DNA of 54,724 bases, taken from assembly GCA_902806085.1 (NCBI GenBank), contig CADCVH010000011.1, forward strand, positions 1 through 54,724. Reading direction: 5' to 3'. The DNA comes from an uncultured Rubrobacteraceae bacterium (lineage in GTDB: Bacteria; Actinomycetota; Rubrobacteria; Rubrobacterales; Rubrobacteraceae). The translations under genes and the position numbers were made by a program. Below the pieces are notes generated by a model. It was given only the letters and a program-made list of their open reading frames with translations, was not told the origin of the DNA and did not search any database. Positions 4,135-34,341 of this stretch are shown one piece after another; position 1 is the stretch's first letter, and every line of letters starts with the position of its first letter.

Positions 4135-5597
4135 ACCCATATATAGTAGGCGTTGTTGTAGTTTATCTGGCGGTAACGATAATCATCGGTGTCTGGGCGA
4201 CCAAGCGCACAAAGAACACCTCAGATTTCTTTGTGGCGGGTCGTAGCCTCGGGATGTTCGTGGTGGCAATGGCGGTCTTCACCTCGATCCAGAGCGGATT
4301 CGGGGTTCTCGGCGGCACGGGGCTCACCTTCGACAGCGGATTCGGTGGGTTCGTCGCCGGCATCGGTTTCGCTGCCCCCCTGGGGTTCGTGCTGGCGTGG
4401 TTTCTCGTCGCAAAAAGGATGTGGCGGCTAGCGAACCTCGGTGAGATCTACACGCTAGGAGACGTGGTCGAGCGCCGCTACGCCAGCCGGGGTGTGCGGG
4501 GTTGGATCGGTTTCGCGGTGGCTCTCGGCGTGATCGGGTACCTCGGCGTGCAGGTGCAGGCTACCGGCGTGATCATGGCCGCAATCTTCCCTATCGGGAC
4601 CACCTGGGGAGCCATTATAGGCCTCGGCATCCTAGGCCTGTACGCTGTCGGCGGCGGGATCATAGCTGCCGTCTACACCGACCTCTTCCAGGGGATCATA
4701 ATGGTGGGCGTCTCGATAATAGTAGTCATCATAGCGGTGAATGCCGGTGGCGGGGTGCTCAACATCACCGAGACGCTTCAGGGCGCTGACCCAGCTCTGG
4801 CGTCCCCCTTCGGAACCGTGCCGGCGCTGACGATAGCCTGCTACCTCTTCCTGTTTAGTATCGGGGCTGCAGGGCAACCGCAGCTCCTCACGAAGTTCCT
4901 CATGATCGGGGACACCAAAGAGTTGAAGTGGGGCGCTCTCACCGCGGGGCTGGCGTACCTGCTGACGATGCTCCTGGTAGCTGGCGTAGGGCTCTCAGCG
5001 CTAGCCCTTAGCACTCAGGGCAACTTCCCGGAGCTCGATACGCCGGATCAGGCCCTCACTCGCTTTTTCGTAGAGTTTACCCCGCCGATCCTCGCCGGGC
5101 TCGGGTTCGCGGGCATCCTGGCGGCGATCATGTCCACTGGCGACGCTTTCCTTAACCTCGGGGCGGCTGCCCTTATCCGGGACATCCCCCGCTCGCTGAA
5201 CGTTCCCGTTAGAAACGAACTTCTCTGGAGCCGCATCATCATCGTCGCGTTGCTGGTCCTCTCGCTCCTCTTTTCGTTGTACCTGGACACGCTCGTAGCA
5301 TTACTCGGCGTCTTCGGCTGGGGTACGTTCGCGGCGGCAATCTTCCCGACCGTGGTTCTCGGGCTAGTGTGGCCGCGGGCGACGAGCCAGGGGGCCATCG
5401 TTAGCATCATCACCAGCATCGTACTGAACTTCGTATTGGAGATCGGGGCCCGCTACGGCTTCACACCGCTCCCGGAGGGTGTCGTAAACGGCGCGTTTAC
5501 GCTTGCAGTGGCGATCATAGTGTTCATCGGGACCTCTCTCGTTACCCAGCAGGAGCGAGAAGCCTCCCCCGAGGTAAAGAGGGTCTTCGAAGGTTAG
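4131..5597 (+). CDS. Sodium:solute symporter (SSS family)
   Basis: A 488-residue polytopic membrane protein with about 13 predicted helices. Its N terminus reads TKRTKNTSDFFVAGRSLG, the typical SSSF opening motif in which a helix is followed by the SDFFVAGR loop; later GQPQLLTKFLMIGD and the AGLGFAGILAAIMSTGDAFL segment match SSS carriers of the organic-acid/proline type. It should import a small organic solute driven by sodium; the substrate cannot be read from sequence. The GTG start overlaps the preceding gene. Base composition is visibly less G/C-rich at third positions than neighbouring genes, suggesting horizontal acquisition together with the 144-residue partner. Confidence 0.9.
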   Translation: MNPYIVGVVVVYLAVTIIIGVWATKRTKNTSDFFVAGRSLGMFVVAMAVFTSIQSGFGVLGGTGLTFDSGFGGFVAGIGFAAPLGFVLAWFLVAKRMWRLANLGEIYTLGDVVERRYASRGVRGWIGFAVALGVIGYLGVQVQATGVIMAAIFPIGTTWGAIIGLGILGLYAVGGGIIAAVYTDLFQGIIMVGVSIIVVIIAVNAGGGVLNITETLQGADPALASPFGTVPALTIACYLFLFSIGAAGQPQLLTKFLMIGDTKELKWGALTAGLAYLLTMLLVAGVGLSALALSTQGNFPELDTPDQALTRFFVEFTPPILAGLGFAGILAAIMSTGDAFLNLGAAALIRDIPRSLNVPVRNELLWSRIIIVALLVLSLLFSLYLDTLVALLGVFGWGTFAAAIFPTVVLGLVWPRATSQGAIVSIITSIVLNFVLEIGARYGFTPLPEGVVNGAFTLAVAIIVFIGTSLVTQQEREASPEVKRVFEG

Positions 5598-29805: not shown

Positions 29806-30888
29806 ATGAGAGTCGGAATAGTAGGCCTACCCAACGTGGGCAAGTCCACGGTCTTTAACAGCCTGACGCGGGCCGGCGCTGAGGCGCAGAATTACCCGTT
29901 CACGACCATCGACCCGAACCTGGGGGTCGCCGTGGTCCCCGACGGGCGCCTGGACGCCCTGGCCCGGACGATGAAGAGCCGGCGCGTGGTGCCGGCGACG
30001 GTTGACTTCGTGGACATCGCGGGGCTGGTGCGCGGGGCGAGCGCGGGGGAGGGCCTGGGCAACCAGTTTCTCGGTCACATCCGCGAGTGCGACGCCATAG
30101 CGCACGTCGTCCGCTGCTTTGTGGATGAGGACGTGGTTCACGTCGACGGCAAGGTGGACCCCGAGGGGGACGCGGAGACCATAAACACGGAGCTCTTGCT
30201 GGCCGACCTCGCGACCGTGGAGCGGAGGCTGGACCGGGTCGGGAGGTCAGCCAAGGGCGGCGACGCGAAGCTCAAGGCCGAGGCCGCCGAGCTCGAGAAG
30301 CTGCTGCAACACATCTCCGACGGCAACCCCGCCCGCTCCTACCCGGAGAGCGAGGCGCTGCGGGAGGCGATGGGGACGCTCATCACGGCCAAGCCCACCC
30401 TCTACGTGGCGAACGTGGACGAGGAGTCGGTCGCGGAAGGCAACACGTACAGCGCCAGGGTCGAGAAGCTGGCCGCGCGCGAAGGGGCCGAGGCCGTGCG
30501 CCTCTCCGCGAAGCTCGAGGCCGAGGTGGTGGAGCTCGCGGAGGACGAGGCGCGGGAGTACCTGGAGATGCTCGGTCTTGAGACCGCGGGCTTCCAGGAG
30601 TTCGTGCGGGTGGCCTACCGCCTGCTCGGCCTCGTCACGTTCTTCACCGCCGGGGAGAAGGAGAGCCGGGCCTGGACCGTGCGGGAGGGCTCCACGATCC
30701 GCACCGCCGCCGGCCGCATCCATACGGACATGGAGCGCGGCTTTATCGCGGCCGAGGTGGGGGACTGGGAGAACATCGTCGCCGCGGGCTCCTGGTCGAA
30801 GGCCAAGGAGTCGGCCGACATCCGGCTCGAAGGACGCGGCTACGTCGTAAAAGACGGCGACACCGTACTTATCCGCTTCAACGTCTAG
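29806..30888 (+). CDS. ychF: Redox-regulated ATPase YchF (OLA1 family)
   Basis: A 360-residue Obg-family ATPase. GLPNVGKSTVFNSL (6-19) is the P loop, DIAGLVRGAS the switch II, and NVDE replaces NKxD, the hallmark of ATP over GTP preference; the C-terminal TGS domain runs to the end (FFTAGEKESRAWTVREGS onward). It binds ribosomes and is linked to stress responses. ATG follows an extended -10 without leader. The stop TAG overlaps the GTG of the selenoprotein gene by one base. Confidence 0.95.
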   Translation: MRVGIVGLPNVGKSTVFNSLTRAGAEAQNYPFTTIDPNLGVAVVPDGRLDALARTMKSRRVVPATVDFVDIAGLVRGASAGEGLGNQFLGHIRECDAIAHVVRCFVDEDVVHVDGKVDPEGDAETINTELLLADLATVERRLDRVGRSAKGGDAKLKAEAAELEKLLQHISDGNPARSYPESEALREAMGTLITAKPTLYVANVDEESVAEGNTYSARVEKLAAREGAEAVRLSAKLEAEVVELAEDEAREYLEMLGLETAGFQEFVRVAYRLLGLVTFFTAGEKESRAWTVREGSTIRTAAGRIHTDMERGFIAAEVGDWENIVAAGSWSKAKESADIRLEGRGYVVKDGDTVLIRFNV

Positions 30889-31517
30889 TGGTCCCCTTCG
30901 TCCGGCCCAAGAAGCCCCTCAAGGAGAGCAGGCTCGCGCTCGTCACGACCGGCGGCGTGCACCTGCCCGAACAACCGCGCTTCGACATAGACGACCCGGC
31001 CGGGGACTGCTCGTACCGCGAGATCCCATCCGGCGCGCAAAAACTCACCTGGACCCACGCCTACCACCGCCCCGACGAGGGCTCGGACCTAGATGCCGTC
31101 TTCCCCCTGTGGACCGTGAGAGACCTCGTCTCGACGGGCAGAGTCGGGGGCCTCAACCCCCGCCACTTCTCCTTCATGGGCGCGATCCACGACACCGGGC
31201 CGCTGTCCGAAAAAACGGCCCCCGAGGTCGCCGGAAGACTGGTCGAAGACGGCGCCGACGCGGTCCTCCTCACGCCTTCCTGACCCCTCTGCCACCGGGC
31301 CGTGGGCCTGGTCTGCGAGGCTATTGAGAGCAGGGGCATACCTACCGTAACCCTCGCCATGGAGCGCGGGGTGCCGGCCCCCCGCGTCGCCCGCGTCTCC
31401 TTCCCGTACAACCTCCCGATGGGCGAGCCTGGGGACAAGGAGGGCCACAGACGGGTCGCCCTTGCCGCGCTCGGGCTTCTGCACGAGCTGGAGGGTCCGG
31501 CGGAATTGGATATTTAG
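30888..31517 (+). CDS. UGA-containing selenoprotein, GrdB/PrdB-like reductase family
   Basis: Read through an internal TGA at 31281-31283, this gene encodes 209 residues ending at TAG 31515. Residue 132 would be selenocysteine within LLTPS-U-PLC, a UxxC redox motif in the same position as in glycine/sarcosine/betaine/proline reductase selenoprotein B. Coding character continues past the TGA: HRAVGLVCEAIESRGIPTVTLAM and GEPGDKEGHRRVALAALGLL follow in the same frame with high G/C third positions. An eight-base-pair hairpin with loop GTG starts 11 bases after the TGA. The protein resembles the short GrdB-like oxidoreductases seen outside Clostridia, where the substrate is unknown. It needs selA/selB/selC/selD elsewhere. 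Conventional gene calling would give two separate partial genes. Confidence 0.85.
31281..31312 (+). promoter_or_regulatory. Selenocysteine UGA codon and bacterial SECIS-like hairpin
   Basis: After TGA 31281-31283, ACCGGGCC (31294-31301) pairs with GGCCTGGT (31305-31312), eight pairs with one G-T, around loop GTG. The 18 bases from UGA to the loop and the G at the first loop position fit the bacterial SECIS rules (16-37 nt spacing, loop of 3-14 with an early G). Confidence 0.8.
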
Positions 31518-31521
31518 CCTG

Positions 31522-31580
31522 TCAGCACGCTGCGGCTTCGCCTCCGCCCTCAGCATGCCTCCTTCGGAGGGTTTCAGCTT
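31522..31580. repeat. Dispersed TTCG stem-loop repeat, copy near 31.5 kb
   Basis: TCAGCACGCTGCGGCTTCGC then CTCCGCCCTCAGC parallels the copy at 29.07 kb; a CCTCC-TTCG-GAGG hairpin follows. The remaining gap to 31776 has no gene besides the promoter at 31731. Confidence 0.55.
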
Positions 31581-31730
31581 GTCAGCTTCCGGCCGCTCAC
31601 GGCTCGGCTGGGCGGCGCACCACGCGGCGGTTCAGGTGTTTCGGGGCGTATCGCACACGGGCACCTTGCTGAAAGCCGTGAAGCGGCGAGCTGAGGTTCT
31701 CCCCGGAGGGGACGTGCTGACACGCTAAGA

Positions 31731-31736
31731 TATAAT
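31731..31736 (+). promoter_or_regulatory. -10 element of the DUF6391-like gene
   Basis: A perfect TATAAT lies 40 bases before GTG 31777; GAGGAAAG at about 31760-31767 is the ribosome site. Confidence 0.6.
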
Positions 31737-31776
31737 CCCTGGTAGGACGTATCCCAACCGAGGAAAGTAGCCTTAC

Positions 31777-32466
31777 GTGGCCCTGGTACTGGTTCTGTTC
31801 GTGGCGTTTTTCGTGGTCCTCTTCCTGTTCTTGCTGCCGATCCTCTTCTCGTTGCAGGCTGTGGGGAGTTTGTTTGTCTACCCGAAGCAGCTAAGGGCGG
31901 TGTTGGGGAACAGGATCCTGCGCCGCAACCACGCCCTGGAGCACGCGACCATCGTGGTCATGATGGAGCGGGAGCCGGGGCGCAAGCTGAACGGCTTCTC
32001 CACCGACGACGGGTTCTTCGTGCAGGGCGTCCGCTCGATGGAGGAGGTGGATAGTGCCGCCAGGGAGGCGCTCAGGAGGCTCAGGCGCGGCCAGAAGCGT
32101 CTGGCGATACACCGCAACTGCGGCACGACCATCGTGGCGGCGAACCTGCTCACGGCGGTCCTCTTTCTCCTCTCTTTGGGGGTCGGGATCTACATGGGCT
32201 GGCCGCTCTACCTCATGGTCGTGGGCTCCGTCGTCGCGGCCCTCCTGTTGCGGGTGCCCCTGAGCCTCCTGCTGCAGCGGTTCGTCACCACGGACGCCGA
32301 CCTCTCCAACGCCGAGGTCGGCTGGGTCGAGCCCGCCAACCCGAGGGACCTGCGCGGCGGCGTCTTCGGCCTCTTGCTCGCCGCCTCCACCGTTCAGGTT
32401 CGCGTCTTCCACACCGACCCCGACGCCGTGGAGATCCTGCGCGACGACGGCGCGGTCGTCCGGTAA
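31777..32466 (+). CDS. Membrane protein of DUF6391 type
   Basis: A 229-residue protein: an N-terminal helix (LVLFVAFFVVLFLFLLPILFSL), a conserved soluble block NRILRRNHALEHATIVVMMERE with a HALEHA His/Glu motif, then NCGTTIVAANLL and two more helices. The HALEHAT motif with nearby NCGT is typical of a family found in cyanobacteria and actinobacteria and annotated as DUF6391, in my recollection. A metal site is suggested by the His/Glu cluster but no activity is known. Confidence 0.7.
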   Translation: MALVLVLFVAFFVVLFLFLLPILFSLQAVGSLFVYPKQLRAVLGNRILRRNHALEHATIVVMMEREPGRKLNGFSTDDGFFVQGVRSMEEVDSAAREALRRLRRGQKRLAIHRNCGTTIVAANLLTAVLFLLSLGVGIYMGWPLYLMVVGSVVAALLLRVPLSLLLQRFVTTDADLSNAEVGWVEPANPRDLRGGVFGLLLAASTVQVRVFHTDPDAVEILRDDGAVVR

Positions 32467-32507: not shown

Positions 32508-32927
32508 ATGCTCTGCGTCTTGCTGGGGTGCCTGATCTTGGCGTCCGCCTGCGGCGGGGCCGGCACCCCCACCGGAACGGAGGCCGGACCCGCCTCATCC
32601 GACACCGTCCCACAGACAACGGCGCGAGAGGCCGGCGACGGCGAGGTCCTTGCCGGCACCGCGGACGGTAACGTGATGCGGGCCGGGAGCGGCGACGACG
32701 TGGTGCGCGGCATGGGTGGCGACGACGAGATCTACGGCGGCGAAGGCAAGGACCGGCTCTTTGGCGGCCCCGGGAACGACCTCGTGGACGCGCAGGACCC
32801 GGACGACGTCGGGGGGGCGGGTAGGGACGAGATCTCCTGCGGCCCCGGCCGCGACGAAGTCCTCATGGACGCCGACGACGAGGAGAAGCCGCGCCACTGC
32901 GAGATGGCCGGCGTCGGCTCTTCTTGA
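32508..32927 (+). CDS. Lipoprotein with short RTX-type repeats
   Basis: A 139-residue lipoprotein: signal segment ending in lipobox ASAC, then a Thr/Ser/Pro linker, then three to four GGxGxD repeats (GSGDDVVRGMGGDDEIYGGEGKDRLFGG) and a tail ISCGPGRDEV...RHCEM with two cysteines. The tail layout matches the secreted RTX protein at 11298, so both belong to one family of small calcium-binding surface proteins. ATG at 32508, 41 bases downstream of the preceding stop. Confidence 0.8.
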   Translation: MLCVLLGCLILASACGGAGTPTGTEAGPASSDTVPQTTAREAGDGEVLAGTADGNVMRAGSGDDVVRGMGGDDEIYGGEGKDRLFGGPGNDLVDAQDPDDVGGAGRDEISCGPGRDEVLMDADDEEKPRHCEMAGVGSS

Positions 32928-32967: not shown

Positions 32968-34341
32968 TTGCAAAACCGAACGGACTACGACGTCCTGATC
33001 ATCGGCGGCGGGCAGGCGGGCATCCCGCTCGCCTACAAGCTTGCCGGCGAGGGCCGCACCGTGGCGCTCGCGGAGCGCAAGGACCTCGGCGGCTCGTGCG
33101 TGAACTTCGGCTGCAGCCCGACCAAGGCCGCCATCGCCTCCGCGAAGGTCGCCTTCCAGGCCAGGCGCGCGGCGGAGTACGGGGTCGAGATACCAGAGGT
33201 GCGCGTGGACTTCCCCGCCGTGCTCCGGCGGGCGAGGGGCGTGGCGGAGACCAAGCGCACCGGCCTCGACAAGGGGCTCGAGGGCTCGGAGAACCCCGTC
33301 CTGATCCGGGGCCACGCCCGCCTCGACGGCCGGGAGGACGAAGGCTTCCGCGTACGGGTCGGTGACCGTTCCCTCCTCGTGGGCCAGGTCGTACTCAACA
33401 CCGGAACGCGCACGCTCATCCCCCCGATAGACGGCCTCGACGCGGTGGACTACATCGACGCGGGCAACTGGATGGACAGGGAGGATCTGCCGGGGCACCT
33501 GGTCCTCGTCGGCGGCAGCTACATAGGGCTCGAGATGGCCCAGTTCTACCGCCGCATGGGCAGCGACGTGACGGTCGTCGTCGGATCCTCCGACCACGTC
33601 GCCTCGGGCGAGGACGACGACGTCACCGAGGTCATGCGAGATCTCCTGGCCGCAGAGGGCGTGAAGTTCGTGTTCTGCGAACGCGCCCAGGGCGTCGTCT
33701 CCGACGGGGACGGCCTCACCCTGACGCTCGACGGCGGAGACCCGGCGGAGGTCCGGGCCACGCACCTCTTCCTGGCGACCGGCCGCCGCCCGAACACCGA
33801 CGACCTCGGCCTCGAGAGCGTCGGCCTCGAGACGGACCGGCGGGGCTTTATCGAGACAGACGAACGGCTGGCGACCTCGGTCGAGGGGATCTGGGCGGGC
33901 GGGGACATCCGGGGCGGCCCGATGTTCACCCACACCTCCTACGACGACCACCGGGTGCTCCTCTCCCAGATGGCCGGCGACGGCTCACGCACCACCGACC
34001 GCGTCGTGCCATACGCCGTCTTCACCGACCCTGAGCTCGGACGCGTCGGCATGACCGAGCGCGAGGCCCGCGAGGCCGGTTACGAGGTCGAGGTCCACCG
34101 CCTCGACATGGAGGGCGAGAAGGGCAAGGCCTTCGAGCTAGGGGAGAACAAGGGCTTCATAAAGGTCGTCTCCGACGCCTCCAACGACCACGTCCTCGGC
34201 GCGGCGGTCCTGACCATAGAGGGCGCCGAGCTCGTCCACATCTACGAGGACTTGATGAACGCCGACCTGCCCCTCTCCGTGGTGCGCGAGGCCGTGTACA
34301 TCCACCCGACCCTGGCAGAAGACATCCAGAGCGCTATTTAG
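32968..34341 (+). CDS. Pyridine nucleotide-disulfide oxidoreductase (mercuric reductase/LPD-like)
   Basis: A 457-residue FAD/NAD(P)H two-dinucleotide-fold enzyme. DVLIIGGGQAGIPLAYKLA binds FAD; C44 and C49 in GGSCVNFGCSPTK form the redox disulfide; LVLVGGSYIGLEMAQFYRRMG binds NAD(P)H; the C-terminal HPTLAEDI holds the active-site His. It lacks the extra C-terminal cysteine pair of true mercuric reductases and no mer or dehydrogenase complex genes are near, so substrate is open. TTG start with AAAGGAGCGAACC. It is adjacent to the redox-related selenoprotein and SufU regions, a loose context only. Confidence 0.9.
   Translation: MQNRTDYDVLIIGGGQAGIPLAYKLAGEGRTVALAERKDLGGSCVNFGCSPTKAAIASAKVAFQARRAAEYGVEIPEVRVDFPAVLRRARGVAETKRTGLDKGLEGSENPVLIRGHARLDGREDEGFRVRVGDRSLLVGQVVLNTGTRTLIPPIDGLDAVDYIDAGNWMDREDLPGHLVLVGGSYIGLEMAQFYRRMGSDVTVVVGSSDHVASGEDDDVTEVMRDLLAAEGVKFVFCERAQGVVSDGDGLTLTLDGGDPAEVRATHLFLATGRRPNTDDLGLESVGLETDRRGFIETDERLATSVEGIWAGGDIRGGPMFTHTSYDDHRVLLSQMAGDGSRTTDRVVPYAVFTDPELGRVGMTEREAREAGYEVEVHRLDMEGEKGKAFELGENKGFIKVVSDASNDHVLGAAVLTIEGAELVHIYEDLMNADLPLSVVREAVYIHPTLAEDIQSAI

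Follow-up and report, generated by a model that had tools for sequence, protein, structure and literature searches.

Organisation of the locus

The window, a stretch of 54,724 nucleotides on contig CADCVH010000011.1 of an uncultured Rubrobacteraceae bacterium, contains a short putative selenoprotein gene behind ychF. The eight closest named loci belong to Rubrobacter, Rubrobacteraceae or Actinobacteria/Actinomycetota records, in agreement with the actinobacterial origin proposed in an initial annotation. The genes and features of the locus are the following:

29806..30888, + strand: ychF (PF06071, PF01926), overlapping the PrdB-like gene by one base
30888..31517, + strand: putative PrdB-like selenoprotein gene, GTG start, TAG stop at 31515-31517, 209 amino acids by read-through
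31281..31283, + strand: in-frame TGA, putative Sec132 codon and first position of UxxC, as judged from codon counts among homologues
31290..31292, + strand: TGC, Cys135, the UxxC partner, an invariant column in the 19-protein alignment A2
31294..31312, + strand: candidate bacterial SECIS hairpin within the coding sequence, as judged from covariation in 18 sequences
31777..32466, + strand: downstream neighbour, a DUF6391 protein (PF19928)
32508-32927: frame for a short protein that matches an RTX-type calcium-binding repeat (PF00353), ending in TGA 40 bases before the flavoprotein gene
32968..34341, + strand: pyridine nucleotide-disulphide oxidoreductase (PF07992, PF02852)

The GTG start and the ychF stop share one base (TAGTG), placing the gene directly downstream of ychF as originally described. 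A single TGA interrupts the frame, within LLTPS-U-PLCHR, and the UxxC motif claimed for this site reads directly as UPLC.

Conservation across the in-frame TGA

A scan of a species-genome collection identified 19 loci, of which 18 are long and share 41-86% identity with the window's protein; the remaining one (L019; 58 residues, 34% identity) was dropped from the counts. The long relatives come from Rubrobacter-type genomes, Deltaproteobacteria, Neobacillus, Methylomirabilota, Poribacteria and Acidobacteriota. TGA occupies the same codon in 17 of them, and the A2 alignment spans the TGA with invariant residues on either side. Among 86 different proteins from several phyla, including the window's (94 rows minus eight duplicates; 15 weak GrdB-type matches from the phylum and one fragment from genome G302 are not counted), the position is encoded by TGA in 78, TGC (Cys) in seven and GGA (Gly) in one. 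Homologues run past the TGA; an end at that position had been named as damaging to the selenoprotein reading. The alignment of U with U or Cys suggested in the initial annotation holds in 85 of the 86 proteins, the comparison having been made through family profiles and homologues without a tested function. A quick tree, with SH-aLRT support only and several long branches, requires at least six changes among Sec, Cys and Gly.

The glycine codon belongs to L010 (GGA at 4406-4408), where the hairpin is intact (8/8 pairs) and whose close relative L009 has TGA. A recent loss of the TGA or an error in the sequence would account for it; otherwise it is unexplained by a redox centre. A divergent paralogue with the motif AP-U-PDCC occurs at L076, L077 and L107; the eight-pair register of the hairpin is lost there (1-3/8 pairs), and an alternative hairpin appears possible by eye. 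TGA is found at both motif positions in two related genes, L098:567-578 and L100:572-583 (genomes G113 and G143), giving UPIU (UxxU), a putative double-selenocysteine form of the motif. Both of these genomes have selB over its cut-off, and the local fold at their UPIU genes is no better than that of shuffled sequences.

The window's class contains a match in 33 of 39 genomes, including all 22 with a completeness of 90% or more and a contamination of 5% or less. The ychF-linked gene is present in 32 class genomes (the window, L043-L074 and L078, minus L048, which is the window again, and L068, where ychF does not adjoin), while G032 has only a divergent paralogue. TGA is found in 28 of these 32 genes and TGC in four, those of G010, G011, G014 and G015. 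A TAG in G011 was considered as a Sec codon and rejected, as it is the ychF stop and the copy there is a Cys version.

Relative to the window, dN/dS is 0.07-0.22 over the 68 codons 3' of the TGA (12 comparisons, of which three involve duplicates of one protein) and 0.04-0.37 over the 30 codons 5' of it (the 11 comparisons where it was computable). These ratios indicate purifying selection on the codons downstream of the TGA. The predicted structure is a single confident domain that extends across the TGA (pLDDT 90.8, pTM 0.91), and in this model residue 132 immediately precedes a predicted helix spanning 133-147, with Cys135 lying one turn further along. The conserved codon and the purifying selection 3' of it bear out the original claim of a single gene containing the TGA at 31281 in frame: 30888-31517 is one intact gene, not a broken one, and almost certainly encodes a selenoprotein.

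A covarying hairpin downstream of the TGA

Positions 31294-31301 pair with 31305-31312 in eight pairs (one G-U) around a GTG loop (GUG in RNA), with ten bases between the TGA and the stem and 18 between the TGA and the loop. This geometry is that described in the initial annotation. The hairpin alone is hardly beyond chance (z of -2.02; 8 of 200 shuffles fold equally well), so that the case for it is made by comparison among homologues. In 18 sequences the eight pairs are standard in 99.3% of cells, three pairs are altered on both sides, in 15 cells, and sliding the pairing partners gives at most 57.6% paired. The covariation score of 0.390 (shuffled mean 0.200) is reached by none of 500 shuffles, nor are the share of paired cells or the number of double-change cells. 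These three of five measures thus lie beyond all 500 shuffles; the other two, pairs with a double change (124/500) and pair types (409/500), lie within them. The hairpin covaries, which in this alignment indicates selection on the RNA.

Among the ychF-linked class genes, all eight pairs form in 27 of the 28 Sec genes and seven in the remaining one; none of the four Cys versions forms all eight (7, 5, 5 and 5 pairs). The class sequences are related, and these counts do not amount to 32 independent trials. For the sequence 3' of the codon, the mean folding energies of TGA genes (86 rows, -15.95) and TGC genes (seven rows, -14.91) are nearly the same. Distant TGA genes are often unpaired in the register of the window, down to 1/8, and in L104 and some other distant TGA genes a shifted hairpin seems present by eye. 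An Rfam search of 30800-31800 with E values up to 5 returned no RNA family.

TGA does serve as a stop in this genome, for example at the end of frame 32508-32927 with its Pfam match. The TGA at 31281 could likewise be an ordinary stop, leaving a 131-residue protein followed by a dead or separate 3' part. This is very improbable, given the purifying selection 3' of the codon, the presence of TGA or Cys at this position in proteins of several phyla, and the covariation of the hairpin.

Selenocysteine machinery

The genome of the window (4.41 Mb in 133 contigs; completeness 100, contamination 4.55) contains the four components whose search had been recommended. Contig C130 carries selA (486 bits, cut-off 267.9), selB (317 bits, cut-off 242.25) and a tRNA-Sec whose anticodon is TCA (Rfam RF01852; 64 bits against a gathering threshold of 47). 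The selD gene (360 bits, cut-off 125) lies on contig C74 (L042:3937-4974) and has an in-frame TGA of its own within the segment KAG-TGA-GSK, so that this genome appears to have a second selenoprotein gene. In the portions of the literature available, a tRNA-Sec (PMC5330540) and five selenoproteins, not all of them named there (PMC1794560), are reported for Rubrobacter xylanophilus.

Reassignment of the UGA to a different amino acid, or simple read-through of it as one, is the least probable of the alternatives weighed here: the Gly codon of L010 is in its favour, but selA, selB, selD and tRNA-Sec are all present and the other seven sense codons all specify Cys.

SelB exceeds its cut-off in 29 of the 39 class genomes. 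Six class genomes have a TGA gene and no selB over the cut-off; G008, G018, G020, G030 and G037 are drafts 75-82% complete, and G005 is 98% complete. Short selB matches at the start of the model are found in G005 (2-96) and G018 (2-138), and may be selB pieces at contig ends or another factor. The genomes with Cys versions (G010, G011, G014 and G015) keep selB over the cut-off. In the phylum, at least 213 of 396 genomes have selB over the cut-off, so its co-occurrence with the PrdB-like gene is weak evidence. Among the 31 non-class genomes of the phylum with a strong A2 match, G335 and G381 are without selB at E <= 1e-50 among the matches listed. G381 is 80% complete and has a TGA version; in G335, selB, selA and selD actually adjoin the PrdB-like gene. 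Among the matches listed, G335 and G374 (L149:857-6660 and L151:1003-6788) both have the PrdB-like gene followed by selD, selA and selB on the same strand; the sel proteins of G374 were identified by family models and those of G335 by similarity to them. Since the PrdB-like gene is nearly universal in the class, it may be one reason why these bacteria retain selenocysteine.

Family assignment and the search for a partner subunit

The best family match of the protein is TIGR04483, PrdB (115.3 bits, 2.9e-33), which aligns residues 6-198 of 209 with profile positions 22-218 of 238 and is matched by all 19 members of A2. The score misses the equivalog cut-off of 300 bits. PF07355 (GRDB superfamily) passes its cut-off of 22 with 26.5 bits over profile positions 214-345, its last 40%. 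The N-terminal half of GrdB is absent from the 209-residue protein, whose matches begin at positions 214-221 of GrdB-type models of 431-435 positions.

PF09338, the partner-subunit family of glycine reductase, presumably also covering PrdA of proline reductase, has no match in any of the 39 class genomes, the window's own included. The same search serves as its own positive control, with matches in 15 of 396 phylum genomes. All 15 are among the 78 genomes with an A2 match, where their matches are weak and GrdB-type (E 7.6e-23 to 2.7e-12); only G302 also has a strong A2 match. This distribution separates grd-type genomes from 63 genomes with a PrdB-like gene and no PF09338. The PrdA model TIGR04480 has no match in the window's genome and none in the control genomes either; the absence of PrdA is therefore read from PF09338.

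The proposal that the gene encodes a selenocysteine-dependent reductase of the GrdB/PrdB type thus holds for the relationship, through PF07355 and TIGR04483, while "reductase" describes a presumed activity. The missed PrdB cut-off and the lack of a PF09338 partner mean that the name proline or glycine reductase is not warranted. The protein could still be a true D-proline (or glycine-type) reductase subunit whose partner escaped the searches or has an unrelated sequence: PrdB is its best family match, and the PrdA model is silent in controls as well. This is improbable in view of the score of 115.3 bits where 300 are required, the absence throughout the class of PF09338, whose model does find matches in the phylum, and the lack outside the class of a neighbour family common to at least five loci apart from the family itself.

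Solved structures gave nothing convincing by protein sequence (best E 0.32, a designed protein) or by profile (best E 0.013, also a designed protein), and no Foldseek match at E <= 0.001 for the predicted structure. Microcystinase C (7ylq_B; Z 10.1, rmsd 3.6, 151 aligned) heads the VIA-align rows, followed by Lac-repressor-type folds (Z up to 8.9). This likeness of the model is perhaps only a common alpha/beta arrangement and is unused as functional evidence. No thioredoxin-type or PrdB-like chain is among the VIA-align rows listed, which carries no weight.

Genomic neighbourhood

The ychF gene is upstream of all 32 counted class genes, Cys versions included, and a DUF6391 gene lies downstream of 31 of them, none being found in L059. 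A pyridine nucleotide-disulphide oxidoreductase is near the gene in five of the eight Rubrobacter-type loci L001-L008 and in L159, and not in L005-L007 or L158. The copy at 32968 is a possible electron source; the neighbours as electron donors are a guess. Where flanks of relatives from other groups were compared (many only about 1 kb), ychF was not found beside the gene. Clustering of neighbours in 50 loci (clusters of at least five loci) gave, besides the family itself, four clusters restricted to Rubrobacter-type loci and one oxidoreductase cluster made up of four Poribacteria loci and L005. Outside the class, no neighbour family is common to at least five loci save the family itself and this oxidoreductase cluster. 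In three related loci (L125, L127 and L129), a similar protein appears by eye immediately upstream.

YchF is an oxidative-stress regulator. The protein could be a redox protection or repair enzyme, reducing peroxides, electrophiles or disulphides, with YchF-linked stress control in Rubrobacter. The ychF linkage throughout the counted class genes, the UxxC motif modelled just ahead of a helix, the UxxU variant and the flavoprotein disulphide reductase nearby in five of eight loci are consistent with such a role. It is nevertheless unlikely, though less so than the other alternatives, as ychF is found only beside class genes (with flanks of often only about 1 kb in the other groups).

Proposed function

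The gene would give a 209-residue cytosolic selenoprotein with a computed mass of about 22.6 kDa. Given the machinery in the genome and the covariation of the coding-region hairpin, SelB and Sec-tRNA would read the UGA at 31281 with the aid of that hairpin and presumably insert selenocysteine. In the model, Sec132 stands just ahead of a helix and Cys135 one turn further, as in thiol redox centres, and UxxC would be the active site. In a conjectural cycle, a small substrate would most likely be attacked at an electrophilic bond by the selenolate. Cys135 might then resolve the selenenyl intermediate, and the selenol could be restored by thioredoxin, a low-molecular thiol or a flavoprotein disulphide reductase. 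Since neither the genome nor the class has a match to the partner subunit, the known PrdAB/GrdBE reaction is probably unusable, which points to a stand-alone relative with another substrate.

As far as sequence comparison can tell, the product is probably a stand-alone UxxC selenol-thiol oxidoreductase, putative as to activity, and not a proline or glycine reductase. Overall, a selenoprotein acting as such a stand-alone redox enzyme is the best explanation of the locus and a fairly likely one. There is a slight preference for a broader view, in which the widespread stand-alone PrdB-like selenoproteins of actinobacteria form a separate class of selenol oxidoreductases without a pyruvoyl partner, nearly fixed in the class beside ychF, located beside sel genes in at least two genomes and carrying UxxU in one lineage.

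Both standard ways of naming this gene are misleading: the standard code truncates it at the TGA, and homology gives it the name of a Stickland-fermentation enzyme. If the stand-alone reading is true, the question becomes what a PrdB-type Sec centre reduces without a pyruvoyl partner. The natural Sec, Cys, Gly and UxxU versions provide ready-made comparisons.

Comparison with known selenoproteins

PrdB-type selenoproteins as such are already described, in marine metagenomes and some anaerobes. The accessible portions of the sources list 42 PrdB selenoproteins with UxxC from the Sargasso Sea (PMC1088965), 235 PrdB sequences under pfam07355 from the GOS metagenomes (PMC2398784), and proline reductase selenoproteins in Anaeromyxobacter, Geobacter, Alkaliphilus and Clostridium difficile (PMC1794560). 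In the text seen of PMC13188914 and PMC9312934, PrdB has UxxC, with one Sec according to the former. Across the text seen of the papers, UxxU is assigned to Prx-like proteins and to a putative mercuric reductase but never to PrdB. The accessible parts of PMC9751293 and PMC5579227 added nothing on the PrdB-like gene. A literature search covering few subscription papers and no supplements found, in the text available, no paper dealing with the PrdB-like gene of Rubrobacter or with a PrdB of UxxU type.

The window's protein shares with PrdB (TIGR04483) a nearly full-length profile match and the same putative Sec in UxxC (for the PrdB motif, PMC13188914 and PMC9312934, as far as accessible), but it scores far below the equivalog cut-off, and its genome and class are without a PF09338 match. 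It also lacks the N-terminal extension of about 15-55 residues found in relatives outside the class. With GrdB, the selenoprotein B of glycine/sarcosine/betaine reductase, it has PF07355 and UxxC in common (PMC13188914, accessible text), whereas it is without the N-terminal half of GrdB, and the genomes bearing PF09338 stand apart as a group with weak scores. The Sargasso Sea and GOS "proline reductase PrdB" proteins have in common with it UxxC (PMC1088965) and pfam07355 (PMC2398784), and in the portions of these papers available they are named after proline reductase, with nothing said on the presence of PrdA. Possibly, they are of the same stand-alone kind.
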